In this document: positions 43,066 through 61,385 of the stretch, one piece after another | How positions within the stretch are numbered: position 1 is the first letter of the stretch | How the letters are laid out: every line of letters starts with the position of its first letter | NCBI RefSeq assembly: GCF_030409225.1 | Contig: NZ_JAUFPK010000008.1 | Coordinates: 1 to 64,000 of the forward strand | Reading direction: 5' to 3' | Length of the DNA: 64,000 bases | Source of the DNA: Aquisalimonas lutea | GTDB lineage: Bacteria; Pseudomonadota; Gammaproteobacteria; Nitrococcales; Aquisalimonadaceae | Notes under the pieces: generated by a model | What the model was told of the DNA's origin: nothing | The model's input: the letters and a program-made list of their open reading frames with translations, nothing else | The model's database searches: none | Position numbers and translations under genes: made by a program

Positions 43066-43485
43066 CTACAGGACCTTGATCGTTCTGCGAGCCCCGTCCA
43101 GTTGGAGTATGTCTCCTGTTTTAATCGAGTCGAAAATCTTGGAGTCCACTCCTGAGGCAATCGGGATACCGGCGGCAACAGCACCCTGCACCATTACCGG
43201 ATTGATTTCACCGAAGATGAGTCCGGAAAATCCAACGCCGAGGTTTGCCATGGCTGGTAGAGCCCACCCTGCGGCTACGCCACCCTGAACCCCTGGTGAC
43301 ACCAGAATATAGCCATTGATCTTTTTGCCAAAGAGTGGATGCGATTGTCTGGAAAACGCACCGGTCTTTCTATTCAGGTCATAGCGCGCACTGAAAGGTA
43401 AGGGGTCCACAAGTGCCGGAGCCTCAATCAGCGAGTCTGTAGCTTGGGCGATGTAGAAGATCGTGTGCGTCGCATCATTAGTCAT
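43066..43485 (-). CDS. Aconitase X small subunit (DUF126)
   Basis: A 139-residue swivelling-domain protein. Conserved elements are ALVDPLPFSARYDLNRKTGA, SHPLFGKKINGYILVSPGVQ, PVMVQGAVAAGIPIASGVDS and GDILQLDG. In AcnX enzymes this subunit closes over the substrate of the large subunit. It follows the large-subunit gene with a four-base overlap. Two-subunit AcnX enzymes act as hydro-lyases, for example cis-3-hydroxyproline dehydratase or mevalonate-5-phosphate dehydratase in archaea; the substrate here is unknown. Confidence 0.9.
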   Translation of the reverse strand: MTNDATHTIFYIAQATDSLIEAPALVDPLPFSARYDLNRKTGAFSRQSHPLFGKKINGYILVSPGVQGGVAAGWALPAMANLGVGFSGLIFGEINPVMVQGAVAAGIPIASGVDSKIFDSIKTGDILQLDGARRTIKVL

Positions 43486-44717
43486 TTTAGTCTACCCGTA
43501 ATGGCTGCATGAACACAGTCTTCAGTCCTTTGGAGAATGGGTTGATATCCATGAGCTTTGATAATGTTCACTAGCTTTGCTGAATTCGTTACCACATTTC
43601 TCCACCCAAACTGTTCTCGCTGGGCGGCGGGGTCCATGATGTACCAGCACGTTCCTTTTAGAATTAGTCCACCAGCGTCGCGAATGGTTTGCGCAATCCC
43701 TTGCTCTTCCGCCACAAAGTGAACGGCCGTGTTCGTAGTGAGGATGAGCTGTACGTTCTCTGACACCTTCTTTCCTGAAAGAAGAGAGGCGATTTTCTTC
43801 ATCTCGAAAAGGGATAGCTGTGGCGCGGTAAAGACGACGAGATCGGGGTTTTCATTGGTTTGTTGCGACTCGAAATAGTCGTCGAGTGTCCGCTCCGTAA
43901 TCACCGTCTCGTCCAGAATAGAGCGACCATTTACCGCTGCTTCCATGTTCGGTGCTTCAGGGGTTGTATTAACGACGTGATACATCGCCATGGAACCGAA
44001 ACTTGCAAGGCTCGCGCCCAAGTGTTTGAGGTTGTCCGAGGAGGGCGCGCTATTAGGCATGGAGAATGCTGGGACATTCCAGTAGCTACGGAAGCGTTCA
44101 CCGACGATCGCGCCGACGGCACCCCAATCGGCGTAGTCGTCGAGGTGCGCCTCTTGGCGGACGATGACGTTAGCGCGACGGTTTACGTCGAGGTGGTAGC
44201 CGTACGCTGGGGTGCGACCCGTTAGTCCGGCTGCTAGCGAGGCGGGTCCGGACTCATAATTGGTACGTGCTCCGAGGACGGAATTGGCGTAGGCAACAGT
44301 CCCTGTGTCACCCCAGGCGACGTGTTCTCCCTTGGTCGGTTGAAAGTGCGTCTGGTATCCAATGCACGTGTTTGCGGTGAGTACGCCGAGTTGACGTAAG
44401 AGCGCAAGGACTTGAGTCTCGCCCTCAACGAGCCCAGTGTCCTGCTTGAGAAAGTCGGCATGCTCGAAGTCAACACATGAGGGGTTGCGCGTGGTAGGGA
44501 TCCGAGTTGCAAGACCTGCCCGCGCAAGGTCTTGTAGGAACGATAGTCCCATGCTTCCGAAGACTTCCGGATCGCCCATGAAGTGAGCGTTCGTGACGGG
44601 CACGAAACCATCCGCATCGAAGAACTGCCCTACCTGATACTGCTGCGCGAAGACCGCGGCAAGCGCCTCGCCGGCATCCCCGTTGAGTATCTCTTGCTCT
44701 TCCCGTGAAAGCTTCAT
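43482..44717 (-). CDS. Aconitase X large (catalytic) subunit (DUF521)
   Basis: A 411-residue AcnX protein. Features: LSREEQEILNGDAGEALAAV near the start, FVPVTNAHFMGDPEVFGSMG, NPSCVDFEHADFLKQD, LTANTCIGYQTHFQPTKGEH with a likely cluster or active-site Cys, GARTNYESGPASLAAGLTGR and a C-terminal KGTCWYIMDP. The start at 44717 has GGGGAA upstream. It acts as a Fe-S or metal-dependent dehydratase with the DUF126 subunit. It is divergent from the first binding-protein gene, and the intergenic region carries strong operator-like symmetry. Confidence 0.9.
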   Translation of the reverse strand: MKLSREEQEILNGDAGEALAAVFAQQYQVGQFFDADGFVPVTNAHFMGDPEVFGSMGLSFLQDLARAGLATRIPTTRNPSCVDFEHADFLKQDTGLVEGETQVLALLRQLGVLTANTCIGYQTHFQPTKGEHVAWGDTGTVAYANSVLGARTNYESGPASLAAGLTGRTPAYGYHLDVNRRANVIVRQEAHLDDYADWGAVGAIVGERFRSYWNVPAFSMPNSAPSSDNLKHLGASLASFGSMAMYHVVNTTPEAPNMEAAVNGRSILDETVITERTLDDYFESQQTNENPDLVVFTAPQLSLFEMKKIASLLSGKKVSENVQLILTTNTAVHFVAEEQGIAQTIRDAGGLILKGTCWYIMDPAAQREQFGWRNVVTNSAKLVNIIKAHGYQPILQRTEDCVHAAITGRLK

Positions 44718-44820
44718 TGCCGTTCCCCGTAATGTGGAGAGGACTGACCTGAGCACGTGTGATCTGCGACTCCGCGCCCTTGGGCCTACCCTCGTGGTTC
44801 ATTTGGATGGGAGTTTGAAA

Positions 44821-44872
44821 GGTATGCATAGGTATGTCAATATTTGACACAAGAGGTATGCAGACCTATGGT
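44821..44872. promoter_or_regulatory. Divergent control region with nested symmetry and a plus-strand promoter
   Basis: Between acnX and the first binding-protein gene lie TGTCAA-TAT-TTGACA (44835-44849, perfect), flanked by direct repeats GGTATGCA (44821, 44855) and inverted CATAGGT / ACCTATG (44827, 44864). TTGACA at 44844-44849, 17 bases, then TATGGT at 44867-44872 makes a plausible sigma-70 promoter for the plus-strand operon. The GntR regulator at 60585 is a candidate ligand-responsive factor. Confidence 0.6.
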
Positions 44873-44972
44873 TATGTTGTTGGTTGCAGCAATCTGCTAC
44901 TGACTGAGTCGAGTAGGTTCGGGGACGCGTTAAGGCAGGATGCCTGCTTCGAGACGAAACGGGAGGTGTGAA

Positions 44973-46022
44973 ATGGGAACGTCCTTATCAGTACTCCGGC
45001 GCCGTGTGGTTTCCGCAGGGCTGTGTGTGTGCGCGATTACAATGACGGCTGGCGTCGCTAATACCAGTGCTGCGCAGGATGACGAGCTGATCCCTGTCAG
45101 TATCGGGCTTCCGATATCCAACTACTGGCCTGGATACGTTGCCCGCGAGCAGGGATTCTTTGAGGAAGCCGGATTCAAGCCCGAGTTTCATATGTTTACC
45201 TCAGGTGCTCCCTTGATCGCTGCGATGCAGTCCGGGAGCATCGATGTGGCCTGGACGGGGCTTGCAACGTTGTTCATGGTCCACCAGGACATTCCGCTTA
45301 CGTATCTCTACACACCGCTCAATTCCTCGAGTCAGCAAGGGTTTATCGTGAACCCCGATACCGGGATTGAGTCGTACCGGGATATTGCACAAGCGTCGGC
45401 GATTGGTGCGCCGACGGCGACGTGTGCGCACATCGCGACAAGTCTGGCTGCCGATGCGGCGGGCGTGTCGATGGACGAGGTGAATCGTCGCAACGTCAGC
45501 CCTGAAAACCTGCAGCCAGCGCTCGAGGATGGGGATATCGACGCTGCCTTCATTTGGGGGCCGTGGAGTTTGCAGCTGCAGGAAGCGGGATATCCGGTGG
45601 TGAGCTGGGACCGCGACTACAATGGTGAGGTGTGCGCGACCAATGTTGCCGCACGGCCATCCTTCCTTGAAGAGCATCCGGAAGCGGGGTGCCGGCTGGT
45701 GAAAGCCCAGGCCCTAACCCTGGAGGCAACAGAAGCCAATCCGGAGCTCGCGGTGACCGCCCTTCAACGGGTGTTGGGTCTTTCCGAAAAGCTTGCCCGG
45801 GAGACCTACGAGACCCTGGAAATCCCGTCGCTCGAGTCGCAGATCCAGGATGGAACCGCCTGGTCCTTGACAGAAGCGCCCGGGGGGCTTGTCGACAAGC
45901 TGCACACTGCGAGCAAGGCCCTTCATAGTGCCGAGGTGTTTCCTGAGCCGGTCTCCAGGGAGAAGCTGGATGATGCGGTAACGCCGGAGTATGTCGAGCA
46001 ATTCCTGAACGGTGAGTGTTGA
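44973..46022 (+). CDS. NitT/TauT-type ABC solute-binding protein 1
   Basis: A 349-residue periplasmic binding protein of the NMT1/SsuA-like class. The signal peptide is VVSAGLCVCAITMTAGVANT ending near AA-QD. The mature protein begins LIPVSIGLPISNYWPGYVAR and has the class pattern FTSGAPLIAAMQSGSIDVAW, APTATCAHIATSLAADA and DIDAAFIWGPWSLQLQE. It is clearly more distant from binding proteins 2 and 3 than they are from each other. The start follows GGGAGGTG. Ligands of this class are small organic or inorganic anions; which one cannot be told. Confidence 0.9.
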   Translation: MGTSLSVLRRRVVSAGLCVCAITMTAGVANTSAAQDDELIPVSIGLPISNYWPGYVAREQGFFEEAGFKPEFHMFTSGAPLIAAMQSGSIDVAWTGLATLFMVHQDIPLTYLYTPLNSSSQQGFIVNPDTGIESYRDIAQASAIGAPTATCAHIATSLAADAAGVSMDEVNRRNVSPENLQPALEDGDIDAAFIWGPWSLQLQEAGYPVVSWDRDYNGEVCATNVAARPSFLEEHPEAGCRLVKAQALTLEATEANPELAVTALQRVLGLSEKLARETYETLEIPSLESQIQDGTAWSLTEAPGGLVDKLHTASKALHSAEVFPEPVSREKLDDAVTPEYVEQFLNGEC

Positions 46023-46138: not shown

Positions 46139-47164
46139 ATGAGTATCAAAACAGCGATTGCGAAAGGCGCCCTAGTCACGCTCGTGGCACAGATCTCCTT
46201 TGGTCAGGTTGTCCAGGCATCAGAAGGCGAAACAGTTTCTTTTGATTACGGGATTCCGTCGGGGTTCTATGCATCCCTCTACGTCGCGGAAGATCTTGGG
46301 CTTTTCGACAAGTACGGGTTGGATCCCAATTTTCATCACTTCGACTCAGGCGCGCCACTGCTTGCGGGATTGGAGAGTGAGAGCCTGGACGTGGTGACCA
46401 CCGGTCTTGCCTCGGTATTTGCCATTGGGAAGGGCATTCCGATTACGTACATCATGTGGGAGGGTGATGCCGCGCAGGCGGAAGGGATTATCGCTCGCAA
46501 CGGAGTCGGCATGGAATCCATCGAGGACCTGGGACGGATCGACGCTATCGGGGCGCCCACCGGTACCTGTGCGCAAATCTCCCTGTACCACGCCGCGGAC
46601 CACGCGGGTGTCGACTACAACGACCTGAACCGGGTCAACGTGGCGCCACCGATGTATGCCAACGCCTTCCACAGCGCGTCCCTGGATGCCGGGGTCTCAT
46701 GGTCTCCCTATCTGATCTCCATGAAGCAAGACGGCCATGACCTGGTTGGACTCGACCCCGAGTGGATGCCCGAGGGAGGTGCGTGCCCGGAGATGACGAT
46801 GGCGCGAACGCCTTTCCTTGAAGAGAACCCGGAGGTAGCAAGGCGCCTGGTTCGGATCAACGCCGAGGCGCGTGCCGCAATCGCCGAAGACCCCTCACTC
46901 GCGCTCGACGCGGTTAAACGGCGGTTGAGCCTCAATGACGACGTGGCGAGGGAGGTGTTTGAACTCTACGAATTTCCCTCGTTTGAGCAGCAGCTTGACG
47001 CCGACTCTCGCTATTCCCTGGTAGGAGAGAAGGGGGTCGTGGCTCAGCTCAAGGTTGCCGCCGATACCTTCGAAGAGCTCGGTGTTATTTCCGAGACGTT
47101 ATCCGTCGAGACACTGAGCGACGCGGTCGAACCGCGCTATGTCCAGGAGTACGCGAATGACTAG
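46139..47164 (+). CDS. NitT/TauT-type ABC solute-binding protein 2
   Basis: A 341-residue periplasmic protein with a short signal peptide (AKGALVTLVAQISFGQVVQA). It continues FDYGIPSGFYASLYVAEDLG, DSGAPLLAGLESESLDVVTT, GAPTGTCAQISLYHAADHAG and GLDPEWMPEGGACPEMTMAR. It shares most of these segments with binding protein 3 (49037), so the two are recent paralogues, with a GTC-type binding-loop motif PTGTCA in both. A GAGGAGGAG site precedes the ATG. It has no ABC ATPase or permease of its own. Confidence 0.9.
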   Translation: MSIKTAIAKGALVTLVAQISFGQVVQASEGETVSFDYGIPSGFYASLYVAEDLGLFDKYGLDPNFHHFDSGAPLLAGLESESLDVVTTGLASVFAIGKGIPITYIMWEGDAAQAEGIIARNGVGMESIEDLGRIDAIGAPTGTCAQISLYHAADHAGVDYNDLNRVNVAPPMYANAFHSASLDAGVSWSPYLISMKQDGHDLVGLDPEWMPEGGACPEMTMARTPFLEENPEVARRLVRINAEARAAIAEDPSLALDAVKRRLSLNDDVAREVFELYEFPSFEQQLDADSRYSLVGEKGVVAQLKVAADTFEELGVISETLSVETLSDAVEPRYVQEYAND

Positions 47165-47348: not shown

Positions 47349-48134
47349 ATGAGTAGCGATTACCAGAACCTGCATGACGTTTCAGGAAAAGCGGCCGTAG
47401 TCATTGGCGCGGCGGGCGGTATCGGGCACGCGGTGGCCAGAGGACTGGCAGCGAACGGTGCACGGACCATCTGCGTGGACGTGGACGCAGATGGCGCAGA
47501 AACGACAGCGACCACGATCCGCAACGATGGAGGACAAGCGGAGTCGGTGAAAGCGGACGTGCTCTCCGATGGGGATCTAGACCGCCTTACGACGGAGTAT
47601 GGAGACGCCGAGATCCTCGTTGTTACCCCGGCCATCCTGGTACGTAAGCGGATCACGGAGCAGAACGACGACGAGTTCGACAAGCAAGTCAACCTCAACG
47701 TGAAGGGGACGTTCCGGGTGGTGCGAGGCTTCGGTCGCGCAATGGCTGAGCGGGGTCGGGGCAGCATCATCGGGTTCTCAAGTGTCCGGGCGGAGCTTGT
47801 TGAGCCTGGTTCGGGGGTGTACGCGGCAACCAAGGCTGCCGTTCTGCAAATGCTCAGAACTCTCGCCGCAGAGCTCGGGCCGGACGGCGTACGCGTAAAC
47901 CTGATATCGCCAAGCCCCGTCGCAACGCGGCTCACGGAAGACGTAAGAAGTCGTCCGGAGTGGTTCGAGGCAACGGCCAACCGGTCAATGCTGCGGCGGT
48001 GGGCAGAGCCCGACGATTTCGTCGGTCCGGCGCTGTTTCTTGCCTCCGACGCGTCGCGATTCGTTACCGCCGCAAATCTCGCAGTCGATGGTGGATGGAG
48101 CGCGGCTGACGGCCTTTCACGCATTAGCGGTTGA
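47349..48134 (+). CDS. Short-chain dehydrogenase/reductase (SDR)
   Basis: A 261-residue classical SDR. The cofactor loop is VVIGAAGGIGHAVARGLAAN; the Asp in TICVDVDADG favours NAD. The catalytic residues are in IIGFSSVRAELVEPG and GVYAATKAAVLQML (Ser, Tyr-x3-Lys), and AVDGGWSAADGLSRISG closes the fold. The expected NAG motif is VTPA here, a departure from the usual Asn. It probably oxidises a hydroxy intermediate to a keto compound in the pathway of this cluster. It lies between binding protein 2 and the ABC ATPase gene. Confidence 0.92.
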   Translation: MSSDYQNLHDVSGKAAVVIGAAGGIGHAVARGLAANGARTICVDVDADGAETTATTIRNDGGQAESVKADVLSDGDLDRLTTEYGDAEILVVTPAILVRKRITEQNDDEFDKQVNLNVKGTFRVVRGFGRAMAERGRGSIIGFSSVRAELVEPGSGVYAATKAAVLQMLRTLAAELGPDGVRVNLISPSPVATRLTEDVRSRPEWFEATANRSMLRRWAEPDDFVGPALFLASDASRFVTAANLAVDGGWSAADGLSRISG

Positions 48135-48212: not shown

Positions 48213-49037
48213 ATGAGCAACAGTACCCCGAAAATAGAGTTCGAAAACGTCCAGAAGGTGTACCCACCTGTCAAGAAATCAGGTGAACCGGTTGAGGCAA
48301 TTGGCGATCTGTCTCTTGCGTTGGAGGAGTCCGAGATATTCTCGATCGTAGGGCCGACAGGGTGCGGAAAATCGACTGCACTAAACATGATCGCGGGGTT
48401 CGAATACCCGAGTGCCGGTGCACTGACCCTGGATGGAATGCCCATCGCCAATCCCGGGCCGGATCGGGCTGTCGTGTTTCAGCATCAATCCCTGTTCCCT
48501 TGGCTGACGGCCCTGGATAACGTCACTCTGGGCGTCAAGTGCCGGGGGATGCCCAAGAGCGAGTACATGGCGAAGGCACGAGAACTCCTCAATGCCGTCG
48601 GGCTGTCCGGATTTGAGAAGAGCTATCCGTATCAACTTTCCGGTGGAATGCAGCAGCGCGTCCAGATTGCACGGGCACTCATTAGTAGCCCGAGCGTGCT
48701 CCTGATGGATGAGCCTTTTGGTGCGCTGGATTACCAGACCCGACTCCTAATGCAGCAGCTCCTCCTCGAGCTTTGGATCGAATTCAGACCAACGATTTTC
48801 TTCATTACACACGACGTTACCGAGGCCGTGTTTATTTCGGACCGAGTCGGCGTGATGACGCAGCGTCCGGGGCGGCTCAAGACCGTCGCCGATGTTCCCA
48901 TTGCCAAGCCCAGGACAATCGACACGCTTACCGATAGCCAGTTCACTGAGATCGAGCACCGCGTGCTGACCTCCGTCCAGGAAGAGATCGGAACCATTGG
49001 GCTTGGCGCAAGTAATAGCGACAGGAGGACCACCTGA
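48213..49037 (+). CDS. ABC transporter ATP-binding protein (NitT/TauT type)
   Basis: A 274-residue ATPase. Walker A is [16 protein letters not shown]-loop [20 protein letters not shown], signature [17 protein letters not shown], Walker [15 protein letters not shown], and H-loop [12 protein letters not shown]. It belongs to the SsuB/TauB/NrtD class. It ends in ATG overlap with the third binding-protein gene, and the permease follows, so these three genes make one import system. The start has GAGGAGGAG upstream. Confidence 0.94.
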
Positions 49038-50080
49038 TGCTCAACACACGGTGGACCCAAGCACTTGCTATAGCCGGCGTTACCGGGTTTCTAGCGCTTA
49101 CTGGCACGGCAGGAGCCGATAGTACAGCGCCGATTCAGTTCAATTACGGGGCTCCGACCTCTGTCTATCCGGTGTTGTATGTAGCCGAGGATTTAGGGCT
49201 CTTCGAGGAGCATGGGCTGAAGCCGAACTTCCATTATTTCGACTCGGGTGCCCCCCTTCTTGCCGGTCTTGAGAGTGAAAGTCTCGACGTTGTGACGACG
49301 GGACTCGCGTCGATCTTCGCCGTTGGACGTGGGATCCCTGTCGTCTACCTCTTCTGGGAAGGCGATGCCGCTCAAGCGGAGGGATTGGTCGCTCGGGACG
49401 GTGTGGACATGCAGTCCGTAGAAGACCTGAGCCAGGTAGGTACCGTCGGCGTGCCAACAGGTACGTGCGCTCACGTCTCCCTTTTCCACGCCGCGGACAA
49501 GGCGGGGATTCCGTATAAGGAGCTGGATACTGTCGATATCGCACCTCCCTTGTACGCAAACGCGTTTCACAGCGAGTCGATCGACGCTGGCTTGGCTTGG
49601 TCACCCTACCTTCTGGATTTGCAGGCGCAGGGTCACGAGGTCGTCGGGTTCGATCCCGAATGGGTACCTGGCGGCGGGGCATGTCCGGACATGACGTTGG
49701 CGCGAAAGGGCGCTCTCGAGGAGAACCCGGAACTGGGTCATCGTCTGGCGGCTGTCAACGCAGAAGCCAGAAAAGCGCTGGAGAGCAATCCGGACCTTGG
49801 CGTCCAGGCCATCGTGTCGCGGCTCAATGTCTCCCGGGAGGTCGCGGAGGCCGTTCTCGATAGGTATCTCCAAGGGGTCCCCTCTTTTGCAGAACAGTTG
49901 AGTCCTGACTCGCGATACGCACTGGTCGGGGCGGACGGACTTGTCGCGCAGCTGGTTTTGGCTGCCGAGACATTTGCAGAGCTCGGCGTCCTTGATGGGG
50001 CCCTCAGTGAGGACGAAATCTTACGTGCCATCGACGCCGATTACATCAAAAGCGAGTTGGCGGCCGGGAGGAATGATTAG
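49037..50080 (+). CDS. NitT/TauT-type ABC solute-binding protein 3
   Basis: A 347-residue periplasmic protein with signal peptide ALAIAGVTGFLALTGTAGA. The mature part reads FNYGAPTSVYPVLYVAEDLG, DSGAPLLAGLESESLDVVTT, GVPTGTCAHVSLFHAADKAG and GFDPEWVPGGGACPDMTLAR, closely matching binding protein 2. It overlaps the ATPase gene by one base and is followed at once by the permease gene, so it is the binding protein most directly linked to the transporter. Confidence 0.91.
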   Translation: MLNTRWTQALAIAGVTGFLALTGTAGADSTAPIQFNYGAPTSVYPVLYVAEDLGLFEEHGLKPNFHYFDSGAPLLAGLESESLDVVTTGLASIFAVGRGIPVVYLFWEGDAAQAEGLVARDGVDMQSVEDLSQVGTVGVPTGTCAHVSLFHAADKAGIPYKELDTVDIAPPLYANAFHSESIDAGLAWSPYLLDLQAQGHEVVGFDPEWVPGGGACPDMTLARKGALEENPELGHRLAAVNAEARKALESNPDLGVQAIVSRLNVSREVAEAVLDRYLQGVPSFAEQLSPDSRYALVGADGLVAQLVLAAETFAELGVLDGALSEDEILRAIDADYIKSELAAGRND

Positions 50081-50082: not shown

Positions 50083-50934
50083 ATGGCTGTAACAACACCA
50101 GTGGATAGAACCCGCAACACAAGCAGAGCGGCAGGCGGGTCTGCTTCGAAGGGGAGCGTCAGCATGCTTCGCAGAGTTCCGTTACCGGTCATTTCGATTA
50201 CCGCAATCGCCATACTACTTTTCATTTGGTACCTAGTGACGAATCTAGGAGTTGTTGGACCAAGGCAATTGCCGGCGCCGCAAGCGCTATTCAGCCAGTT
50301 TTTGACCCTGGCGGAGAACGGCTATCAGGGAACGGCATTACTGGTCCAGATCCAAGCGAGCCTCGGAAGAACACTCATCGGGTTTTTCATCGGGGCCACG
50401 GCTGGAATCGTCGTGGGCCTTGCGGGTGGATATAGCCGGATAATTGGTGCAGTGATTACACCAATAATGGCGTTTATTCGTCCCATTCCTCCGATCGCTT
50501 TCATTCCGATGGTGGTGCTTTATCTGGGGCTGGGCGAGACAGGGAAGATCGTTCTGATCGTGGTGACGGCATTCAATTACTCAGTGGTTAACGCTCAGGC
50601 AGGAGCTGCAGGAACACCCATCGCATACCGGCGAGCGGCGGCGACACTTGGGCTTTCAAAGTTTCAGGAATTCATGCGGATTATCGTACCTTCGGCGCTT
50701 CCGGCCATCTTTACCGGGCTCCGCGTTGCGCTTGCGCTCAGCTGGGCCGTTGTGGTTGCCGCTGAGCTGGTCGGTGCCCAGAAGGGTCTTGGATACATGA
50801 TTAATAACGCCGCCCTTCTATTCGACATACCGACGGTATTCATCGGAATTATCCTCATCGGGATTATCGGTATGACGTTGAATGGGCTCATTGGTGTGGC
50901 CGAGAAAAAGCTTGTGCATTGGGGCGGGCGCTGA
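50083..50934 (+). CDS. ABC transporter permease (NitT/TauT type)
   Basis: A 283-residue membrane protein with six predicted helices. It includes ISITAIAILLFIWYLVTNLG, IGFFIGATAGIVVGLAGGYS, the EAA-like loop region YRRAAATLGLSKFQEFMRII, and ALALSWAVVVAAELVGAQKG, typical of SsuC/TauC permeases. An unusually polar N-terminal extension of about 30 residues precedes the first helix. It is the only permease in the cluster, so a homodimer probably serves all three binding proteins. Confidence 0.92.
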   Translation: MAVTTPVDRTRNTSRAAGGSASKGSVSMLRRVPLPVISITAIAILLFIWYLVTNLGVVGPRQLPAPQALFSQFLTLAENGYQGTALLVQIQASLGRTLIGFFIGATAGIVVGLAGGYSRIIGAVITPIMAFIRPIPPIAFIPMVVLYLGLGETGKIVLIVVTAFNYSVVNAQAGAAGTPIAYRRAAATLGLSKFQEFMRIIVPSALPAIFTGLRVALALSWAVVVAAELVGAQKGLGYMINNAALLFDIPTVFIGIILIGIIGMTLNGLIGVAEKKLVHWGGR

Positions 50935-50935
50935 T

Positions 50936-51358
50936 ATGGAAACCGACGTAGCAACCGATCAGGCAAAAAATCCACTTGACGTCTATTGGGATTATGTTCG
51001 TTCCGGCCGATTTGCGATTCCTTCATGCCGGAAGTGTCAAAAGAAATTTCTTCCGCCGAGGCGGTTTTGCCCCGCGTGTGGATCGGAGGATATTGGCTGG
51101 AGAGAAAGCCAGGGACGTGGGTCTGTCTATACCTACACGGTCATTCATAGCGCACCGAATGAAGGGCTGAAAGCGGAAGTACCCTATGTGATCGCATTGG
51201 CTGACATTGAGGATCTTGGCACAGGCAGCCGATTCTACGCTCGCGTGTTCGACGTTGATCCCTCGGACATCTACACGGGGTTGCCCGTGAAGGTTGTTAT
51301 CCGAAGTGACAGAAACGGAGACAGTCTGCCGGTGCTCGTGCCACGGGAGGATGCATGA
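50936..51358 (+). CDS. DUF35-type Zn-ribbon/OB-fold protein
   Basis: A 140-residue protein. The rubredoxin-like Zn ribbon is IPSCRKCQKKFLPPRRFCPA then CGSEDIGW (two CxxC pairs), followed by an OB fold with GSVYTYTVIHSAP. The start is the ATG at 50936, one base after the permease stop; the upstream frame is shadow. DUF35 proteins form complexes with thiolase-like enzymes and help position acyl-CoA. Its gene overlaps the thiolase-like gene by four bases, so the two surely act together. Confidence 0.92.
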   Translation: METDVATDQAKNPLDVYWDYVRSGRFAIPSCRKCQKKFLPPRRFCPACGSEDIGWRESQGRGSVYTYTVIHSAPNEGLKAEVPYVIALADIEDLGTGSRFYARVFDVDPSDIYTGLPVKVVIRSDRNGDSLPVLVPREDA

Positions 51359-54644: not shown

Positions 54645-54677
54645 CGGAATTGACGAGCCAATAGTCAGGAGATGTTT

Positions 54678-55235
54678 ATGAGTAACACAGATAATGTTCT
54701 CTCCTTTCGGGAAGTCACGGAAATCCTGAGAATCATGGATGACGTACCTCGTGGAGGAGAGGTGACGTTAAAGATTGGTGAGGCCTCGCTGAAGATCAGA
54801 GTTGGGGGAGGGGGCGAAGCACGGAGCACGACGTTGCCGGAGCCGACGCGGGCAGTCAAACCGGCCCCCACCGCAAGCGAGAAGCCCCCAGCCGCTGAGG
54901 GAGCTAGCGCGGCCGGGCGGACAGGTGATACGGGCGCGGCGGCGACGCGGGCTGATGAAGCGCCTGAGGGCTGGACGGCCGTGGAAAGCCCCATGGCCGG
55001 AGTTTTCTATCGAACTCCCTCCCCGGGCGAAGCACCGTTCGTTGAGGTGGGTGATTTCGTTGAGAAGGGGCAGCAGGTCGGGATCATTGAAGTGATGAAG
55101 CTGATGAATCGGATCGTCGCACCCAGCAATGGGATTGTGCGCGAAATCTGCCTCGAGAACGAAGAACTCGCTGAGTTCGGCTCGGTTCTCATGTGGATCG
55201 CGGAGGCGAACGAGGCAGAGGCCACGAGCGGCTGA
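54678..55235 (+). CDS. Biotin carboxyl carrier protein
   Basis: A 185-residue AccB-like protein. The N-terminal helix (SFREVTEILRIMDDVPRGGE) is followed by a long alanine-, proline- and threonine-rich linker, then the biotinyl domain with SPMAGVFYRTPSPGEAPFVE and the biotinylation site IEVMKLMNRI (Lys). The start is the ATG at 54678, seven bases after AGGAGA; an ATG six bases earlier is too close. It is the first of three genes for a biotin-dependent carboxylase. Confidence 0.93.
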   Translation: MSNTDNVLSFREVTEILRIMDDVPRGGEVTLKIGEASLKIRVGGGGEARSTTLPEPTRAVKPAPTASEKPPAAEGASAAGRTGDTGAAATRADEAPEGWTAVESPMAGVFYRTPSPGEAPFVEVGDFVEKGQQVGIIEVMKLMNRIVAPSNGIVREICLENEELAEFGSVLMWIAEANEAEATSG

Positions 55236-55257
55236 GCTCTGGGCAAGGAGGACGGTC

Positions 55258-56595
55258 ATGAAACGGGTTTTGGTCGCTAACCGTGGAGAAATCGCGGTCC
55301 GCGTGATCCGCGCCTGTCGCGAGATGAATATCGAAGCGGTAGCCGTGTACTCCAAGGCAGACGCGAACGCTCTTCATGTGGAGCTGGCCGACCGGGCGAT
55401 ATGCGTGGGACCTGCACGGGTTACCGACAGCTATTTGAACATGGACGCCATTATCCAGATAGCGCTTTCTACGGGGTGTGACGGGATCCATCCCGGATAC
55501 GGTTTTCTCTCGGAGAACCCTGAGTTCGCGCAGAAATGCTCCGATGAAGGACTCACGTTCATTGGGCCTGACGCCAGCATCATCAGGGCAATGGGGGACA
55601 AGGTCCAAGGGCGGCTTATTGCCAAGGAGGCAGGAGTTCCGATTGTGGACGGAACCGAGGGAACGGAGGTGAGTTTCGATGACGTAGCGGCGCTCGCTCA
55701 ACGTTCCGGCTTTCCGGTCCTGCTCAAGGCGGCCGCAGGCGGTGGCGGCCGGGGAATGCGCATTGTCTGGAGCGAGGACGAGCTTAAGGGACAGTTTGAG
55801 GATGCACAGGCAGAAGCGCTGTCCTCGTTTGGTGACAAGACGGTGTATGCGGAGCGGTTCTTACCCTCAATCAGGCACGTAGAGGTGCAGGTGATGGGCA
55901 ATGGCGAAGGAGAAGTCATCCACTTCGGAACGCGTGATTGCACGTTGCAGCGGCGTCACCAGAAGGTCGTGGAGGAGGCACAGGCGACCTATTTTTCACC
56001 GGAGAAACGCGAAGAGATTGCATCGGACGCCGTGCGGCTTGCGTCTCACCTGGATTACGCCGGGGCAGGAACGGTTGAGTTCGTTGTTGATGCCCAAACG
56101 GCGGAGCACTTCTTTATCGAGGTGAATACCCGCATTCAGGTGGAGCATCCGGTAACGGAGATGATTACAGGTGTCGATCTCGTCAGGGAACAGCTCGAAG
56201 TCGCATCAAACGGAAGATTTTCCGAGGATGCGCAGGCGAGTAATGAGCTAAGGGGACATGCGTTAGAATTGAGAATTAACGCCGAGGATCCCGATTCGAA
56301 TTTTGCACCATGCCCTGGGAGAATTAATAATATGACAATACCTGGTGGTCCGGGCGTACGGTTTGATTCCCATATGAGACCAGGGGCAGAAATTTCTCCT
56401 TTTTATGATTCGATGATTGCCAAGCTGATTGTGCACGACATCAATCGCAAAAAGGCTATTGCTAGAGCGCAAAGAGCTCTTCGGGAGTTCGATATAACGG
56501 GCGTCAAAACGAATTCAAAGTTCCTTCTTGAAATTGTTTCTTCAACCGATTTCGTTAACGACGACATCGATACTGGATGGTTGGAGAGAAGATAA
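55258..56595 (+). CDS. Biotin carboxylase subunit
   Basis: A 445-residue AccC-like ATP-grasp enzyme. It has KRVLVANRGEIAVRVIRACR, GCDGIHPGYGFLSENPEFA, the glycine-rich ATP lid LLKAAAGGGGRGMRIV, TRDCTLQRRHQKVVEE and the active-site text FIEVNTRIQVEHPVTE. It carboxylates biotin on the carrier protein using ATP and bicarbonate. The ATG at 55258 follows AAGGAGG. Codon use becomes more AT-rich in the last third, and this continues into the next gene. Confidence 0.95.
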   Translation: MKRVLVANRGEIAVRVIRACREMNIEAVAVYSKADANALHVELADRAICVGPARVTDSYLNMDAIIQIALSTGCDGIHPGYGFLSENPEFAQKCSDEGLTFIGPDASIIRAMGDKVQGRLIAKEAGVPIVDGTEGTEVSFDDVAALAQRSGFPVLLKAAAGGGGRGMRIVWSEDELKGQFEDAQAEALSSFGDKTVYAERFLPSIRHVEVQVMGNGEGEVIHFGTRDCTLQRRHQKVVEEAQATYFSPEKREEIASDAVRLASHLDYAGAGTVEFVVDAQTAEHFFIEVNTRIQVEHPVTEMITGVDLVREQLEVASNGRFSEDAQASNELRGHALELRINAEDPDSNFAPCPGRINNMTIPGGPGVRFDSHMRPGAEISPFYDSMIAKLIVHDINRKKAIARAQRALREFDITGVKTNSKFLLEIVSSTDFVNDDIDTGWLERR

Positions 56596-56637
56596 AGATT
56601 TACTACGCAATACTGAATTTTGTATGAGGACTCGAAG

Positions 56638-58113
56638 ATGGGTAAGAGAGTTGAAATTGAGGATATAACGATAAGGGACGGTGCTCAATGCCTTTGGGCG
56701 ACACGATTGTCCACGGAGGAAATCGTTCCTATCGCTAAGACCATTGATCAAGCGGGGTTCACGGTTGTTGATTTGACTGGGGGCGCTGCGATCGACACGA
56801 GTATCATGTATTTGCAGGAGGATCCGTTCGAGCGTTGTCGGGTACTCAGTGAATTGATGCCGAATTCGAGATTAAACTTTAACTCTAGAGGTCAGAGCGT
56901 ATTTCGGTGGACGCAATACCCCGATGATGTAGCGGAATTAACAATTCGAGTGTTCGCTCGTAACGGCATCAAGTCGATCATGTTGTTTGATCCCCTGAAC
57001 GACATGAGGAATCTGGAATTTTCGGCGAAGATTGCAAAGGAACACGGACTATATGTCATTGGAAGCGTGACGTACACCATCAGTCCGTATCACACCGACG
57101 AACACTTCGTGGAGAAGACTCGCGATTTAGTTGAGATGGGTGTGGATGCGGTCTCCCTCAAGGACCCAAGCGGGCTATTAACCGCGGAGCGCGCCGTAGG
57201 TTTGCTAAGGCAGATGCGATCAGTGCTTCATGGCCAAGCATTGCAGTTACATTGTCATACGTCGACTGGCACCGGGGAGGAGGTCCATAAGGCAGCAATG
57301 GATATGGGCGAAGAAGGGCCGGATGTGTATCACGGTGCGGCACCGCCACTGGCATGGGGCCTTTCGCATCCTTCGCATGAGTTTCTGGTCGACAACTTGG
57401 TGGAAAGGGGGTTCGACGTCGGTTTGGACATGGAAGCCGTCCGAGACATGAGCGCTTACCTCCGCTATTTAGCTGAGAAACGAGGGCTTCCGGAGGGCAA
57501 GCCCGTTTCTAAAAGTGAAGGGGAAGGGACCCGGCGGCACGGTGTGCCAGGTGGGATGTTCAGTAATCTGCGGAGCCAACTCGAGGATCAAGGCTGTGCG
57601 GACCGTTTGCCCGAGGTATTGGAAGAAGTCCAGCGGGTTCGCCATGACCTGGGTTATCCCCTTCTTGTCAGCCCGATGGCCCAATATGTGGGTACCACCG
57701 CGGTACTAAATGTGCTTGCAGGGCGGTATGAGGTGGTTCCCGACGAAGTCAGAAACTACTTGCTCGGGTACTACGGGACGCCACCTGGGCCCGTGGACGA
57801 GAACATCCAAGACAAGATCCTAAACGGTGCGGAACCGATCAAGGAGCGTCCTGGAGAAGTTCTTGAGCCAATGGTCGAGGAGTTCCGAAAGAAAAACGGT
57901 CCCTTTCAGACGGAGGAAGACCTGGTTCTGAATATCTTCTATTCGAAGCCAATCCTGGATAAGTGGAATCTCAAGAACTGGGAGGGCTACCGAAGAACCC
58001 CGAAAAACGCTACGACATTCTTAATGCGTGAGGCAGTCACGAAAACGGACATCGACGAATTCTCATTTGAAAATCAAGAAAAGAAAATCACGGTAACATA
58101 TCAAGCGGACTAG
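56638..58113 (+). CDS. Pyruvate/oxaloacetate-carboxylase-type carboxyltransferase subunit
   Basis: A 491-residue HMGL-like TIM barrel plus PYC_OADA domain. Metal and catalytic motifs: DITIRDGAQCLWATRL, VSLKDPSGLLTAERAV with the Lys that is carbamylated in PYC, and the metal pair LQLHCHTSTGTG (HxH). The C-terminal domain has GVPGGMFSNLRSQL and RVRHDLGYPLLVSP. PYC-type domains carboxylate alpha-keto acids, so the acceptor may be a keto acid; the actual acceptor is unknown. A DUF-type biotin domain is absent, the carrier being encoded separately. Start: ATG at 56638 behind GAGGA. Confidence 0.93.
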   Translation: MGKRVEIEDITIRDGAQCLWATRLSTEEIVPIAKTIDQAGFTVVDLTGGAAIDTSIMYLQEDPFERCRVLSELMPNSRLNFNSRGQSVFRWTQYPDDVAELTIRVFARNGIKSIMLFDPLNDMRNLEFSAKIAKEHGLYVIGSVTYTISPYHTDEHFVEKTRDLVEMGVDAVSLKDPSGLLTAERAVGLLRQMRSVLHGQALQLHCHTSTGTGEEVHKAAMDMGEEGPDVYHGAAPPLAWGLSHPSHEFLVDNLVERGFDVGLDMEAVRDMSAYLRYLAEKRGLPEGKPVSKSEGEGTRRHGVPGGMFSNLRSQLEDQGCADRLPEVLEEVQRVRHDLGYPLLVSPMAQYVGTTAVLNVLAGRYEVVPDEVRNYLLGYYGTPPGPVDENIQDKILNGAEPIKERPGEVLEPMVEEFRKKNGPFQTEEDLVLNIFYSKPILDKWNLKNWEGYRRTPKNATTFLMREAVTKTDIDEFSFENQEKKITVTYQAD

Positions 58114-58124: not shown

Positions 58125-58445
58125 ATGGTAAAAATTGCGATTATCCTTTTCAGGAACAGTATGTCGCTTGAAGAGCAGCACCGGTGGTGGCTTGAAGAGC
58201 ATGCACCGATGGCCCGGAAAATGCCTGGGCTTCGGGGCTACACGATCAATTTAAGTGCCAAGGGTGAAGGAGGTGAAGAGCCTGAAATTGCCGGAACGGA
58301 TTACTTGGAGTTCGACGACTGGGAGTCTGCCATGAAGGCTTATCAGTCAGTGGAGTGGAATGAGGCACGAGAACACACGGCCAAAAGCGGGGCCAAAGCA
58401 ATTCGGACATGGATTAAGGAGACAAGACATATTCTCGAAGAGTAA
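58125..58445 (+). CDS. EthD-like small protein
   Basis: A 106-residue dimeric alpha/beta-barrel protein of the EthD type: VKIAIILFRNSMSLEEQHRW, then WLEEHAPMARKMPGLRGYTI and a C-terminal ETRHILEE. EthD proteins accompany degradation enzymes, but their reaction is generally undefined; some related proteins are small-ring dehydratases or lyases. It begins 11 bases after the carboxyltransferase stop, behind GGCGGAG, so it belongs to the same operon. Confidence 0.87.
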   Translation: MVKIAIILFRNSMSLEEQHRWWLEEHAPMARKMPGLRGYTINLSAKGEGGEEPEIAGTDYLEFDDWESAMKAYQSVEWNEAREHTAKSGAKAIRTWIKETRHILEE

Positions 58446-58574
58446 GAAGGATCTTCGACCAAGGGGGCAGTCTGAGCCCGATGTGACCGGTAGAACGCTG
58501 GGCGGCGTCGAGGATGCTTGTGTAAGTGTAGCAACGGCAGGTCATGGAGAATGGGCCAGGCGCGAGGCATACCA

Positions 58575-60356
58575 ATGGTTTCTCGGAGAGCCTTGCCGTT
58601 CTTGGCGTGGCTGCCGAGCGTCACGGTCCGCACGTTGTGGGCGGACCTTCTGGCTGGGCTCACGGGAGCGGTCATCGTTTTGCCCCAAGGCGTCGCCTAT
58701 GCACTGATAGCCGGGCTACCGCCGCAGTATGGGTTGTATACGGCGATCGTGCCACCGGTTATCGCTGGCTTGTTCGGTTCGTCGCGACACTTGGTCTCAG
58801 GTCCTACTGCTGCGATCTCAATTGTCGTGTTCAGCGTCGTCAGCGGCGTTGTCTCACCGGATAGCCCGCAGTTCGTTCCGTACGTGCTCACCCTTACCTT
58901 CATGGCTGGCGCCATCCAGTTCATGCTCGGGTTGGCAAGAGTGGGCACGTTGGTGAACTTTATCTCGCACACGGTCGTGGTAGGATTTACGACCGGTGCG
59001 GCGGTGGTGATCGCCGTGAGTCAGCTGCGTCATTTCCTCGGCCTGGATGTCGGCAGCAGCGCTTCCTTCCCCGAGACCGTATCGACAGTGATGAGCGCCT
59101 TGCCCGCGACGAATCCGTGGGCGGTCGCCATCGGTGGGATCACGCTGATTACCGCAATGGCTGTGCGCTGGCTATGGCCGCGTTCGCCGGGGTTACTTAT
59201 CGCCATGGTTGTCGGAAGCGTTGCGGGCACTGTCTTGGGCGCCGAGCGCTATGGTGTCGAGCGGGTTGGGGCTATTCCCGGCGAGCTCCCGGCGCCGTCA
59301 TTCCATTTGCTCTCGCCGGAGGCAATGCCTGAACTCGCTTCAGGTGCGCTAGCGGTTGCGGTGATCGCGTTGATTGAGGCAGTGGCCATTGCCCGGGCCG
59401 TGGGGATGCGGTCCCGCCAGCGTATCGACGGCGACCAGGAGTTCATCGGTCAGGGGCTATCCAATATTGTCGGCAGCTTGTTCTCCTGCTATGCGGCGTC
59501 CGGGTCTTTCACACGCACAGGGGCGAACTATGAGGCTGGGGCTCGTACCCCGCTCGCTGCGGTCTTCGCGGCGTCGATCCTGCTTGTTGTTGTGCTTGCC
59601 GTACCCGGTGTGACGGCCTATCTACCAATGCCGGCGATGGCTGCCGTGGTACTGGTCATCGCCTGGAATCTCGTAGATCTTGGGCGGTTGCGCCAGATTG
59701 TCAGTGTAAGCCGTGAAGAGACGGCGATTTTGGTCGTGACATTCCTGGCGACTCTGTTGCTGGATCTGGAGTTCGCTATTTACGCGGGTGTGCTTCTGTC
59801 TTTATTGCTGTTCCTCAAGCGTAGCGCCCGGCCCTACATCGTTGCTGTGGCGCCAATGCACGGGCGGCCCGGCCGGCCGTTGCGGAACGCTGCCAAACGC
59901 GGTCTGGCGGAGTGCCCGCAAGTCAAAATTCTGCGCATCGACGGCCCGCTGTTTTTCGGTTCGGCAGACCATCTACAGGGGCATCTTGGGCAGTTGACCG
60001 AGGCTGGCTACAGTCATGTGGTGCTTGAGGGCAGTGGCGTCGATTTTGTGGACGTTGCGGCCGCGGAGACGCTCGCACAGGAGGCAGAGCGTTTTCGCAG
60101 TCTCGGTGGCGGATTGTGGCTTTGTAGTTTCAAGGAACCGGCGGGGGAATTACTACGTTATCGCGTCTTTCGAGACGCAATTGGCGCGAAATATATCCAT
60201 GGCTCGCCGGACGACGCCATTGGAGCGATTTTTTCGGAGACTCCGCTGTGCAGTGAGTGTCGACAAGAGGACAGACGCTGTTGTCGGTTGATTGACGGTG
60301 CTCGTGAAAGCACGGACGAGCGGGTGACGAGGCAGCCGACACCTTATCTGCCGTAG
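58575..60356 (+). CDS. SulP-family anion transporter with STAS domain
   Basis: A 593-residue transporter. The first part has the SulP signature VLPQGVAYALIAGLPPQYGL and about eleven helices (for example LVSGPTAAISIVVFSVVSGV), and the last 150 residues form a STAS domain (ILRIDGPLFFGSADHLQGHL, VVLEGSGVDFVDVAAAE). A Cys-rich tail (LCSECRQEDRRCCRL) follows. The start is uncertain: the ATG at 58575 has GAGG at good distance; one at 58551 lies directly on GGAGA. SulP proteins carry sulfate, bicarbonate or dicarboxylates. Next to a biotin carboxylase, bicarbonate is an attractive but unproven substrate. Confidence 0.9.
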   Translation: MVSRRALPFLAWLPSVTVRTLWADLLAGLTGAVIVLPQGVAYALIAGLPPQYGLYTAIVPPVIAGLFGSSRHLVSGPTAAISIVVFSVVSGVVSPDSPQFVPYVLTLTFMAGAIQFMLGLARVGTLVNFISHTVVVGFTTGAAVVIAVSQLRHFLGLDVGSSASFPETVSTVMSALPATNPWAVAIGGITLITAMAVRWLWPRSPGLLIAMVVGSVAGTVLGAERYGVERVGAIPGELPAPSFHLLSPEAMPELASGALAVAVIALIEAVAIARAVGMRSRQRIDGDQEFIGQGLSNIVGSLFSCYAASGSFTRTGANYEAGARTPLAAVFAASILLVVVLAVPGVTAYLPMPAMAAVVLVIAWNLVDLGRLRQIVSVSREETAILVVTFLATLLLDLEFAIYAGVLLSLLLFLKRSARPYIVAVAPMHGRPGRPLRNAAKRGLAECPQVKILRIDGPLFFGSADHLQGHLGQLTEAGYSHVVLEGSGVDFVDVAAAETLAQEAERFRSLGGGLWLCSFKEPAGELLRYRVFRDAIGAKYIHGSPDDAIGAIFSETPLCSECRQEDRRCCRLIDGARESTDERVTRQPTPYLP

Positions 60357-60541
60357 GTGGCGTGTTAAGTCTAGACCTTAGTTACCACCATCTAGGCCTG
60401 TCTCGCCTGCACTACCTATGTCCGTAGCTGGAGTCGGAGCGTCGGACTGTGCCGACACTTGGAAGCTTCCCGCGTAGAACAACGGTCACGACCCTGTGAC
60501 TCGCGAGGTAAATACTGCGCATGAGATAATGCGGACGTCTG

Positions 60542-60557
60542 CATATGTTATAATATG
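60542..60557. promoter_or_regulatory. Inverted repeat over the -10 region of the GntR gene
   Basis: CATAT-GTTATA-ATATG overlaps TATAAT (60549-60554), 30 bases before the GTG start. A repressor bound here would block its own promoter. Confidence 0.5.
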
Positions 60558-60584
60558 TATAGGGATACAGTTAGGAGCGTAGCG

Positions 60585-61385
60585 GTGGAAGAAGTTAAAG
60601 AAGAGGCAGTAATTGATATCTCTTCAGAGTTGGATGCGGACAGCGCTGTCGCAGTCCATGAGCAGTTGTCCGAGGCCTTGCGAAGGGAGATTGAGAGCCA
60701 GAAAGCAGGCGCGAGGCTCCCTACAGAAAAGGAGCTTGTTGCGCGCTTTAACGTTAGCCGAAGTACTGTTCGGCGTGCGATAGAGACATTGGTGGACAAA
60801 GGGCTACTTGTCCGCCGCCAGGGAAAGGGTACATACGTTGCGGGTAAGCGTCCCGTGCAAATGGTCGACAGGCTTGCCCCGTTTGTAGAGTCGTTCACAG
60901 CCTCGGGGCTAACGCCGATAGTGTCTCTGCTAGAGTATACATGGTTTGCGGATTCAGATAGCGCTCCTGATCCTTTAGCAAAGCAGGAGGGGGGTATACT
61001 TTTTGTCCGGCGCCTTTATCGAGCAGAAGGCGTTCCCCACGCCATAGCAGAAATCTATGTGCCGGAGCGTTTTGGCCGATTCATGTCGCGAGCTGATGTG
61101 GAAGAGCACCCTATTTATCAGGTATTACAAGAGCGTGCGGGTAAAGAGCCACGTTACGCTAATATCACACTAACTTGTGTTGCGGCGAAACCGCATATTG
61201 CGTCACTTCTTGAACTCAATGAAGGAGACCTGATTCCTTGTCTTAAACGCGTTTCTTATGGTGATGATGGCGAAGTTCTTGAGGTCATGACTGCGCCGCT
61301 TCGACCGGATGCGTTTGAATTGCGGACCACCGTGGGCACGGATCACTCCCGCCCGGTTTCATTTACTTTTGGAACACAAAAGTGA
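60585..61385 (+). CDS. GntR-family (HutC subfamily) transcriptional regulator
   Basis: A 266-residue regulator. The winged HTH is LSEALRREIESQKAGARLPT then EKELVARFNVSRSTVRRAIE and LVRRQGKGTYVAG; the rest is a UTRA effector domain (FVRRLYRAEGVPHAIAEIYV, FGRFMSRADVEEHPIYQVLQ). The GTG at 60585 behind TTAGGAG is preferred over an ATG at 60555 that overlaps the -10 box. Its gene follows the region 5 cluster and its ligand is probably a substrate or intermediate of that pathway. The gene is more AT-rich than its surroundings. Confidence 0.92.
   Translation: MEEVKEEAVIDISSELDADSAVAVHEQLSEALRREIESQKAGARLPTEKELVARFNVSRSTVRRAIETLVDKGLLVRRQGKGTYVAGKRPVQMVDRLAPFVESFTASGLTPIVSLLEYTWFADSDSAPDPLAKQEGGILFVRRLYRAEGVPHAIAEIYVPERFGRFMSRADVEEHPIYQVLQERAGKEPRYANITLTCVAAKPHIASLLELNEGDLIPCLKRVSYGDDGEVLEVMTAPLRPDAFELRTTVGTDHSRPVSFTFGTQK

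Follow-up and report, generated by a model that had tools for sequence, protein, structure and literature searches.

A conserved gene cluster of Aquisalimonas lutea with a Ser-less AcnX, a Cys-less thiolase-fold protein and a biotin-dependent carboxylase: a candidate GntR-controlled catabolic pathway

A stretch of 64,000 nucleotides from Aquisalimonas lutea (contig NZ_JAUFPK010000008.1, positions 1 to 64,000, here called the window) harbors at positions 43066-61385 genes for an AcnX-type protein, a short-chain dehydrogenase/reductase (SDR), an ABC importer, a thiolase-fold protein with a DUF35 partner, an ADP-forming acyl-CoA synthetase (ACD), a biotin-dependent carboxylase and a GntR regulator. 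This raises the question whether these genes belong together and, if so, which chemistry they would perform. That they form one co-regulated unit is highly likely and surer than any reaction scheme, since a chance neighbourhood is hard to reconcile with the joint recurrence of all 14 core components in four of four further genomes. For the chemistry, a horizontally transferred, GntR-controlled catabolic pathway, in which carboxylation is followed by CoA ligation and a non-thiolytic cleavage, is put forward as a tentative reading, plausible but short of probable. Its substrate would be a small hydroxy- or oxo-organic anion, which is much less sure than this scheme.

Twenty proteins of the window were scanned with Pfam and NCBIfam. 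All gene classes named in the original prediction (AcnX, SDR, thiolase-fold/DUF35, ACD and biotin carboxylase) were found at 43066-61385, and the EthD-like gene as well as the SulP gene are additions to its list. The NCBIfam matches lie mostly under the curated cut-offs and thus speak for the family, not for the substrate. The cluster reads as follows.

43066-43485, minus strand: small (swivel) subunit of AcnX, from the Ser-less clade called AcnX-Gly here, with Gly69 replacing the catalytic Ser (PF01989, E 1.3e-16, and alignments)
43482-44756, minus strand: AcnX large subunit, with C131 and C370 but no third cluster Cys and with Asp150 in place of Glu292 (PF04412, E 4.2e-113); likely true start by alignment 44717
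44940-46022, plus strand: NMT1/SsuA-type substrate-binding protein 1 (Pfam/NCBIfam)
46139-47164, plus strand: NMT1/SsuA-type substrate-binding protein 2 (Pfam/NCBIfam)
47349-48134, plus strand: SDR dehydrogenase (PF13561, E 7.5e-56)
48213-49037, plus strand: ABC ATPase, TauB-like (Pfam/NCBIfam)
49037-50080, plus strand: NMT1/SsuA-type substrate-binding protein 3 (Pfam/NCBIfam)
50083-50934, plus strand: ABC permease, TauC-like (Pfam/NCBIfam)
50882-51358, plus strand: DUF35 zinc-ribbon/OB-fold partner (PF01796 and PF12172); likely true start by alignment about 50936
51355-52503, plus strand: thiolase-fold lyase, Gly for the nucleophile Cys, YDAF motif, predicted to be of retro-aldolase type (alignments)
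52545-54644, plus strand: ACD, fused alpha-beta (PF13607, PF13549, PF13380; NCBIfam below cut-offs)
54672-55235, plus strand: biotin carboxyl carrier protein, BCCP (PF00364, E 6.5e-18)
55129-56595, plus strand: biotin carboxylase, BC (PF02786, PF00289, PF02785); likely true start by alignment about 55258
56620-58113, plus strand: PYC/OADA-type carboxyltransferase, CT (PF02436; tree and residues)
58125-58445, plus strand: EthD-like ferredoxin-fold protein of 106 aa, kept in all five clusters described below (model and fold match)
58518-60356, plus strand: SulP permease (Pfam)
60555-61385, plus strand: GntR/UTRA regulator (PF00392, PF07702)

A scan of genome contigs with the CT protein revealed four relatives at 65-70% identity, in Arthrobacter sp. 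35W, MYb229 and HY1533 as well as in Leucobacter chromiisoli. Since the scan depends on exact short peptides, four is a lower bound. Together with the window these clusters are called W-type here; they come from two phyla, and in each of the four relatives, extended flanks included, all 14 core components are present (AcnX small and large subunit, ABC ATPase, binding protein, permease, DUF35, thiolase-fold protein, ACD, BCCP, BC, CT, SDR, EthD and GntR). The genes are not scattered, and the idea, proposed from the window alone, that genes for uptake, carboxylation, CoA ligation and C-C cleavage make up a single conserved catabolic unit is borne out by this co-occurrence and by the operator-like sites. 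From the ATPase through binding protein, permease, DUF35, thiolase-fold protein, ACD, BCCP and BC to the CT, the genes follow each other alike in the window and in three relatives. An inverted and relocated ABC block and a shifted EthD gene distinguish HY1533 (L005), with the components still clustered; likewise, the position of the SDR gene in the window differs from that in the other clusters, still within the cluster. The SDR is 49-57% and the regulator 41-48% identical to the counterparts in the four other clusters, and the EthD-like protein, with 66-70%, is among the best conserved of the set.

Furthermore, the clusters have operator-like sites in common. The palindrome ACGTATNNATACGT first stood out in L002 and L005, two of the four relative loci. 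When at most two mismatches are allowed, it has exactly two matches in the whole window:

44820-44833, no strand: candidate GntR operator AGGTATGCATAGGT, in the divergent gap between AcnX and binding protein 1
60535-60548, no strand: candidate GntR operator ACGTCTGCATATGT, immediately 5' of the GntR gene (60555)

In L003 and L004, one match each was found per whole locus, both in the intergenic stretch that separates AcnX from the ABC genes. Thus, in the three loci that were not sources of the motif (window, L003 and L004), all four matches fall into gaps that precede cluster genes, compared to a mean of 0.07 in shuffles, none of 2000 shuffles reaching four; here, the gap limits were fixed after the motif scan and three other gaps of the window, which hold no match, were left out. 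It is the placement of the matches that is unusual, not their number. Weaker copies with three mismatches are present at 44854 and 44864 and flank a sigma70-like site at 44844-44872 (TTGACA-17-TATGGT); promoter-like sites as such are not enriched in the region (9 versus 7.8 in shuffles), and operator patterns of UTRA-type regulators were absent or present in just one or two gaps. The GntR protein would bind the shared sites and thereby control AcnX, the main operon and itself. Since candidate operators are shared by the AcnX/ABC gap and the GntR gene, a separate regulation of sub-operons is not indicated.

The cluster is sparsely distributed. The genome samples comprised 398 genomes of the phylum, 395 and 249 of the families of Arthrobacter 35W and Leucobacter, respectively, 299 of the family to which G313 and Cupriavidus belong and 14 of the own family. 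At E <= 1e-120, the CT was found in one genome of the phylum sample, which is the window's own, at E <= 1e-100 in three genomes of the Arthrobacter 35W family and at E <= 1e-110 in one genome of the Leucobacter family, all of them clusters already found; among the 13 other members of the own family, four of the same genus, the best match is 46% identical. Because the CT is so sparse in the phylum, Arthrobacter-family and Leucobacter-family samples, the distribution is a pattern of rare horizontal transfer. The G+C content is 51-60% at 42-62 kb (2-kb steps) and 62-67% farther along the contig, at 75-91 kb (4-kb steps). To the right of the cluster, an IS1595-type transposase gene (61661-62635) lies within an element at 61648-62693 with 25-nt inverted repeats that are 92% complementary. 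Neither the EthD-like protein (E <= 1e-5) nor the permease (E <= 1e-40) had a match among plasmids, 24.9 kb of the window gave two short plasmid matches only by megablast, and no tRNA was found within the window. SulP is absent from the fetched stretches of the four relatives; because a paralogue with 79% identity is present elsewhere in the same genome (G000:C1:504071-505177), the window SulP was probably recruited locally, by duplication into the transferred operon.

In a tree of 24 CTs, all six PYC/OadA proteins sampled are split from the other 18 with an ultrafast bootstrap (UFBoot) of 100, and the five W-type CTs form one group, also with UFBoot 100. A Trp at position 26 of the window CT is found in 18 of the 18 and in none of the six PYC/OadA proteins. 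The CT had been announced as PYC-type; this holds for the family (PF02436), and in the tree the CT does not group with the PYC/OadA sample. Genes of beta-keto-acid-type ligation or cleavage are present near the CT at eight of 13 related loci outside the W-type (L018, L020, L029, L030, L031, L032, L034 and L078). These include an ACD and a thiolase in L018, an AMP-forming ligase and a thiolase in L020, an acetoacetate-CoA ligase in L031 and L034, and a BKACE-like gene in L030 and L078/L082. Mainly because of this gene company, a carboxylation yielding a beta-keto acid is preferred, and a 2-oxo acid or another carboxylated ketone is a reasonable substrate class for the W-type carboxylase.

Several points weigh against this preference. 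The node that joins the W-type CTs with those of L018 and L078 has a support of 67 and the other deep nodes among the 18 have 46-65, in a tree that lacks the characterised ketone carboxylases (HpeB, XccC and Acv sequences). The stretches seen of L019, L033 and L035 contain no such ligase or thiolase, an acetoacetate decarboxylase gene is all that L036 offers, and L028, also among the 13 loci, is unannotated. The residues KD and HxH, which we take to be the metal ligands of the CT, are intact in the W-type proteins and altered in L020 (GD, MAH), L029 (ED) and L035 (SD); therefore, less can be concluded from L020 and L029 than one would expect from their genes. Finally, the window CT keeps R19, D20, Q23 and a later Arg, which is presumably the ligand of the carboxylate of pyruvate, and a 2-oxo acid is therefore a possible substrate. 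This later Arg is lost in the CTs of L019, L028, L030, L031 and L034. Here, the CT of L034 is located beside PEP-type kinase genes and those of L030, L031 and L034 beside HAD hydrolase genes, surroundings which resemble the acetovanillone pathway (PMC9618137).

Two of the related loci deserve mention on their own. In L029 (1026-12774, plasmid pRB98 of Rhodococcus oxybenzonivorans), genes of PEP-utilizing/pyruvate phosphate dikinase type, an AMP-forming ligase, BCCP, BC, CT, DUF35, a Cys-bearing thiolase and a phosphatase follow each other in one run; from its gene content, this is probably an Hpe-like aryl-ketone route ending with DUF35/thiolase instead of a hydrolase. In L032 (5767-15616, plasmid of Cnuibacter physcomitrellae), SDR, CT, BCCP, BC, BioY, a 3-oxoacid CoA-transferase and a thiolase adjoin a gene named as 2,4'-dihydroxyacetophenone dioxygenase family, and another ketone-carboxylation route is likely.

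The thiolase-fold protein is altered at its active site. All five W-type proteins read HGG[AS]SN at the position of the nucleophile Cys, which is retained by the thiolases of L018, L020, L029 and L032. Four further named homologues without this Cys, 50-57% identical, have Gly at the same position, and Gly for Cys together with a YDxF motif is present in nine of nine Cys-less homologues aligned (L094 was left out of this alignment). At the YDxF position, the classical thiolases aligned read NEAF and that of L029 reads HDAF. Against the PDB, the best match is 4U4E (353 bits), a named thiolase for which no stated function was seen and which also lacks the Cys, and the best match with a stated function is the aldolase CtSal (9MYR, 202 bits), followed by 7YVY (150 bits), Ltp2 (6OK1, 141 bits) and BbsB (7PXP, 136 bits). 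The steroid side-chain aldolases CtSal-CtShyDUF35 and TcLtp2-ChsH2 share the thiolase fold with a DUF35 partner, the Gly at the Cys position and the Tyr of YDxF, and in the CtSal study the Gly is stated to rule out thiolytic cleavage (PMC12329534; Shy is treated in a companion study, PMC11321319). Plain thiolytic cleavage is rejected for the window enzyme, since the nucleophile Cys is a Gly and the aldolase-type Tyr is present, and with it the earlier notion that a thiolase performs the cleavage.

This does not turn the enzyme into a Sal or Ltp2. The window protein reads YDAF instead of YDHF or YDCY, and neither steroid genes nor a MaoC hydratase gene are present in the cluster. MaoC-type hydratase genes are found in the stretches around each of five named homologues (the Azospirillum stretch has a separate classical acyltransferase in addition). 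The DUF35/thiolase-fold pair BbsAB, the benzoylsuccinyl-CoA thiolase, is built likewise and is the weaker match compared to CtSal (136 versus 202 bits). Because the second catalytic residue of Ltp2/Sal (Tyr344 / Cys304) is not conserved, being a mixture of Tyr and Phe and an Ala, respectively, the statement that the enzyme works like an aldolase is better supported by the alignments than the statement that it is a Sal/Ltp2. The same loss counts against an aldolase as such, as do the score of 7YVY, a Cys-bearing protein named acetyl-CoA acetyltransferase that ranks between CtSal and Ltp2, and the fact that no dehydrogenase for an aldehyde product is present in the cluster. Since the related clusters have Cys-bearing thiolases, a retro-aldolase would furthermore fit only with a beta-hydroxyacyl-CoA or a hydrate as substrate.

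The ACD carries the CoA-binding, ligase and ATP-grasp_5 domains in a single chain according to Pfam; its NCBIfam matches lie below the equivalog cut-offs and thus do not assign a substrate. It had been suggested that this enzyme regains ATP at the end of the pathway. Because an AMP-forming ligase takes the place of the ACD in the related cluster L020, it is more likely by analogy that ATP is spent here to form the CoA thioester, and a gain of ATP is not favoured.

For AcnX, the general base is Ser70 in AtAcnX and Ser62 of the small subunit in TkAcnX (PMC8184944; PMC5144071). The landmarks of AtAcnX given in the former are three Cys ligands and the substrate-binding residues Glu292, Asp203, Lys530 and Tyr534, Asp203 being specific to hydroxyproline; types I and IIb have three Fe-S Cys ligands and type IIa has two, and subclasses IIc-IIf without the landmark residues are listed there as uncharacterised (PMC8184944). 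The window protein shares with these the fold family, Lys394 (equivalent to Lys530) as the sole substrate residue kept, and two Fe-S Cys, C131 and C370, the two-Cys state of type IIa. In contrast, the catalytic Ser is replaced by Gly69, the third Cys is gone and Glu292, Asp203 and Tyr534 are replaced by Asp150, Met60 and Ile398. Because the Ser is a Gly and the third Cys is absent, the dehydration step that had been ascribed to AcnX is unproven and not upheld. The AcnX-Gly proteins possibly fall among subclasses IIc-IIf. The replacement of Ser by Gly was found in 29 of 29 distinct loci examined (some of them near-identical; L041, the same record as L066, counted once; the member G009:C400 outside this small-subunit comparison), which were gathered with a clade model at E <= 1e-120 and show the uniformity of the clade, not of all AcnX, and the outgroup loci L042 and L043 retain the Ser.

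Two known dehydrations were considered for AcnX-Gly and rejected: that of cis-3-hydroxyproline, since the landmark residues are missing and no proline enzymes are present among the scanned window proteins, and that of mevalonate-5-phosphate, since the third Cys and the catalytic Ser are missing and no kinase is present among these proteins.

AcnX-Gly is more widespread than the cluster. At E <= 1e-120, it was found in 17 of the 299 genomes sampled from the family of Cupriavidus sp. EM10, in two of 398 of the phylum sample, in three of 14 of the window's family and on several plasmids. Among 24 distinct loci outside the W-type, a GntR-family gene is nearby in at least 15 (UTRA by Pfam in L040 and L044) and a SulP gene in at least eight; further neighbours are TTT binding proteins, a MatC carrier and two-subunit TPP enzymes, and L039 combines AcnX-Gly with a set resembling fumarase and succinate dehydrogenase. 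From these neighbours, some of which (L078/L082 included) were labelled by BLAST against a hand-made reference set, the uptake of small organic anions appears as the common theme. Two of the loci carry a W-like carboxylase: L020 (G005) has NMT1 ABC genes, SDR, a classical thiolase, CT, BCCP, BC, an AMP-forming ligase and AcnX, and L078/L082 (G1094) has BCCP, CT, NMT1/TauBC ABC genes, two TauE-family permeases, a BKACE-like gene, a GMC oxidoreductase, SulP and AcnX.

As a separate observation, AcnX-Gly lies in L038 and L068 beside malate synthase and glycolate oxidase genes as well as genes for two-subunit TPP enzymes accompanied by a GMC oxidoreductase, which by gene content is a different, undescribed pathway using the same Ser-less AcnX.

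The EthD-like protein adds a further candidate enzyme. A model built from the five sequences (mean pLDDT 78) has a ferredoxin-like topology, and among known folds it best resembles the EthD-family protein BH0200 (TM 0.79), besides 4-methylmuconolactone methylisomerase and olivetolic acid cyclase. A role as lactone isomerase or as small acid-base enzyme is possible.

Taken as a sequence of reactions, the anion would be imported by the TauBC-like ABC system with its three binding proteins. The SDR, perhaps together with AcnX-Gly, would yield an enolizable ketone or a 2-oxo acid. As the phylogeny and gene company of the CT suggest, BCCP, BC and CT would use ATP and bicarbonate to carboxylate this compound adjacent to the carbonyl group to a beta-keto acid, for which the ACD, judged by its family, would form the CoA thioester. 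The DUF35/thiolase-fold pair would then break the C-C bond without thiolysis, either by a retro-aldol reaction on a beta-hydroxyacyl-CoA following reduction by the SDR or by acting on the hydrate of a beta-ketoacyl-CoA. The reactions, their order and the directions of the ACD and the SDR are in this sense conjectural. A more far-reaching version, namely a CO2-fixing degradation route in which a Ser-less AcnX and a Cys-less thiolase-fold/DUF35 pair perform new chemistry (retro-aldol or hydrolytic retro-Claisen) beside a dedicated ketone/2-oxo-acid carboxylase and which opens a class of natural organic acids, possibly sulfonates, with no described breakdown, appears doubtful.

The alternative that survives best reverses the order. 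Here, the ACD would ligate an imported beta-hydroxy acid, the DUF35/YDxF aldolase would split the thioester into an acyl-CoA plus a ketone or 2-oxo acid, and carboxylation of this carbonyl product to an oxaloacetate-like acid would come last. The aldolase signature implies a beta-hydroxyacyl-CoA, a beta-hydroxy acid is present in the substrates of characterised AcnX, the CT keeps the Arg presumed to bind the carboxylate of pyruvate, and AcnX-Gly is found elsewhere near 2-oxo-acid enzymes (malate synthase, glycolate oxidase and TPP-dependent two-subunit enzymes). On the contrary, ligases and thiolases with Cys accompany this type of carboxylase in the related clusters, as would be expected if carboxylation came first, and the SDR would be left without an obvious role. 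This order is rated as unlikely, though it deserves to be kept in mind; the activation before carboxylation that had been read from the gene order is possible but not preferred.

The acid could bear a sulfonate group on which AcnX-Gly acts, or be a similar anion, as would fit the SsuA/TauA-like binding proteins (albeit below the NCBIfam cut-offs), the TauE/SafE-family permeases in the clusters of L018 and L078, SulP in the window and near other AcnX-Gly genes, and the TPP_enzyme_N/C two-subunit enzymes at AcnX-Gly loci, which we assume to be comD/comE-like. However, these transporter families also carry carboxylates, the window SulP is close to its own-genome paralogue and no recognisable desulfonating enzyme is present among the scanned cluster proteins, so that an organosulfonate pathway seems rather improbable. 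Carnitine, levulinate, tropane alkaloids, sulfolactate and tartrate were weighed on chemistry alone, with evidence neither way.

The biotin enzyme could also be an acquired anaplerotic pyruvate carboxylase that accompanies a degradation operon. The PYC/OADA fold with R19, D20, Q23 and the later Arg agrees with this, and the window's genome has no second CT match at E <= 0.001. This is opposed by the clear split from the six PYC/OadA proteins and by the four actinobacterial genomes, which keep the W-type CT despite a PYC-length homologue each (open frames of 1148-1224 aa). Furthermore, pyruvate carboxylase has an essential Thr (Thr882 in R. etli), which presumably lies in the VTP motif; this motif reads VSP in the CTs of the W-type, L018 and L078. 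An anaplerotic role is thus judged to be improbable. That the cluster is a composite of unrelated operons adjoining by chance, to which the differing module order and the inverted ABC block of L005 might point, is close to refuted and very improbable given the 14 components kept together in five genomes of two phyla and their common operator-like sites.

A description of the full gene set was not found in the open-licence literature, searched by titles and abstract openings, in line with the view that no described pathway has it. Judged by analogy, the closest described pathway is the Hpe/Acv aryl-ketone route. In the Hpe (Rhodococcus rhodochrous GD02), Acv (Sphingobium SYK-6) and Xcc (Aromatoleum) systems, a ketone is likewise carboxylated by a three-part biotin-dependent enzyme before it is ligated to CoA and its C-C bond is cleaved, and hpe is described as present in few genomes, apparently acquired horizontally (PMC9618137). 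The window resembles them in having BCCP, BC and a PYC/OADA-type CT as separate proteins. In contrast to them, no PEP-type kinase or phosphatase is present among the 20 scanned proteins, the ligase is ADP-forming instead of AMP-forming, a Cys-less thiolase-fold lyase stands in place of a CouO-type hydrolase, and AcnX, SDR, a dedicated ABC importer and EthD are added.

If the proposed pathway with carboxylation before ligation and cleavage is true, the biotin-dependent carboxylation of carbonyl compounds would be a modular catabolic strategy beyond aryl ketones, in which the CoA-ligation and cleavage modules are interchangeable. It would also give testable roles to Ser-less AcnX and Cys-less DUF35-partnered "thiolases". 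The names AcnX and thiolase would then be misleading in many genomes, where some records of the Cys-less homologues say acetyl-CoA acetyltransferase.

Some observations lie beside these subjects. Between 31527 and 38103, the window has no listed open reading frame of at least 230 aa, which is unusual for a contig of about 60% G+C. Nearer to the cluster on its left side, the frame at 40160-40897 matches DUF3320 (42.7 bits, above the Pfam cut-off) and weakly the C-terminal end of the anti-phage protein ProA (40.6 bits, far below the NCBIfam cut-off), and its neighbour at 40894-41634 is a DUF429 gene; this pair is possibly the remnant of a defence system. In L041 of Cupriavidus sp. EM10, the AcnX small subunit (about 13224-13621) is matched as two pieces in different frames, unlike in L040 of C. 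campinensis, where the match is unbroken.

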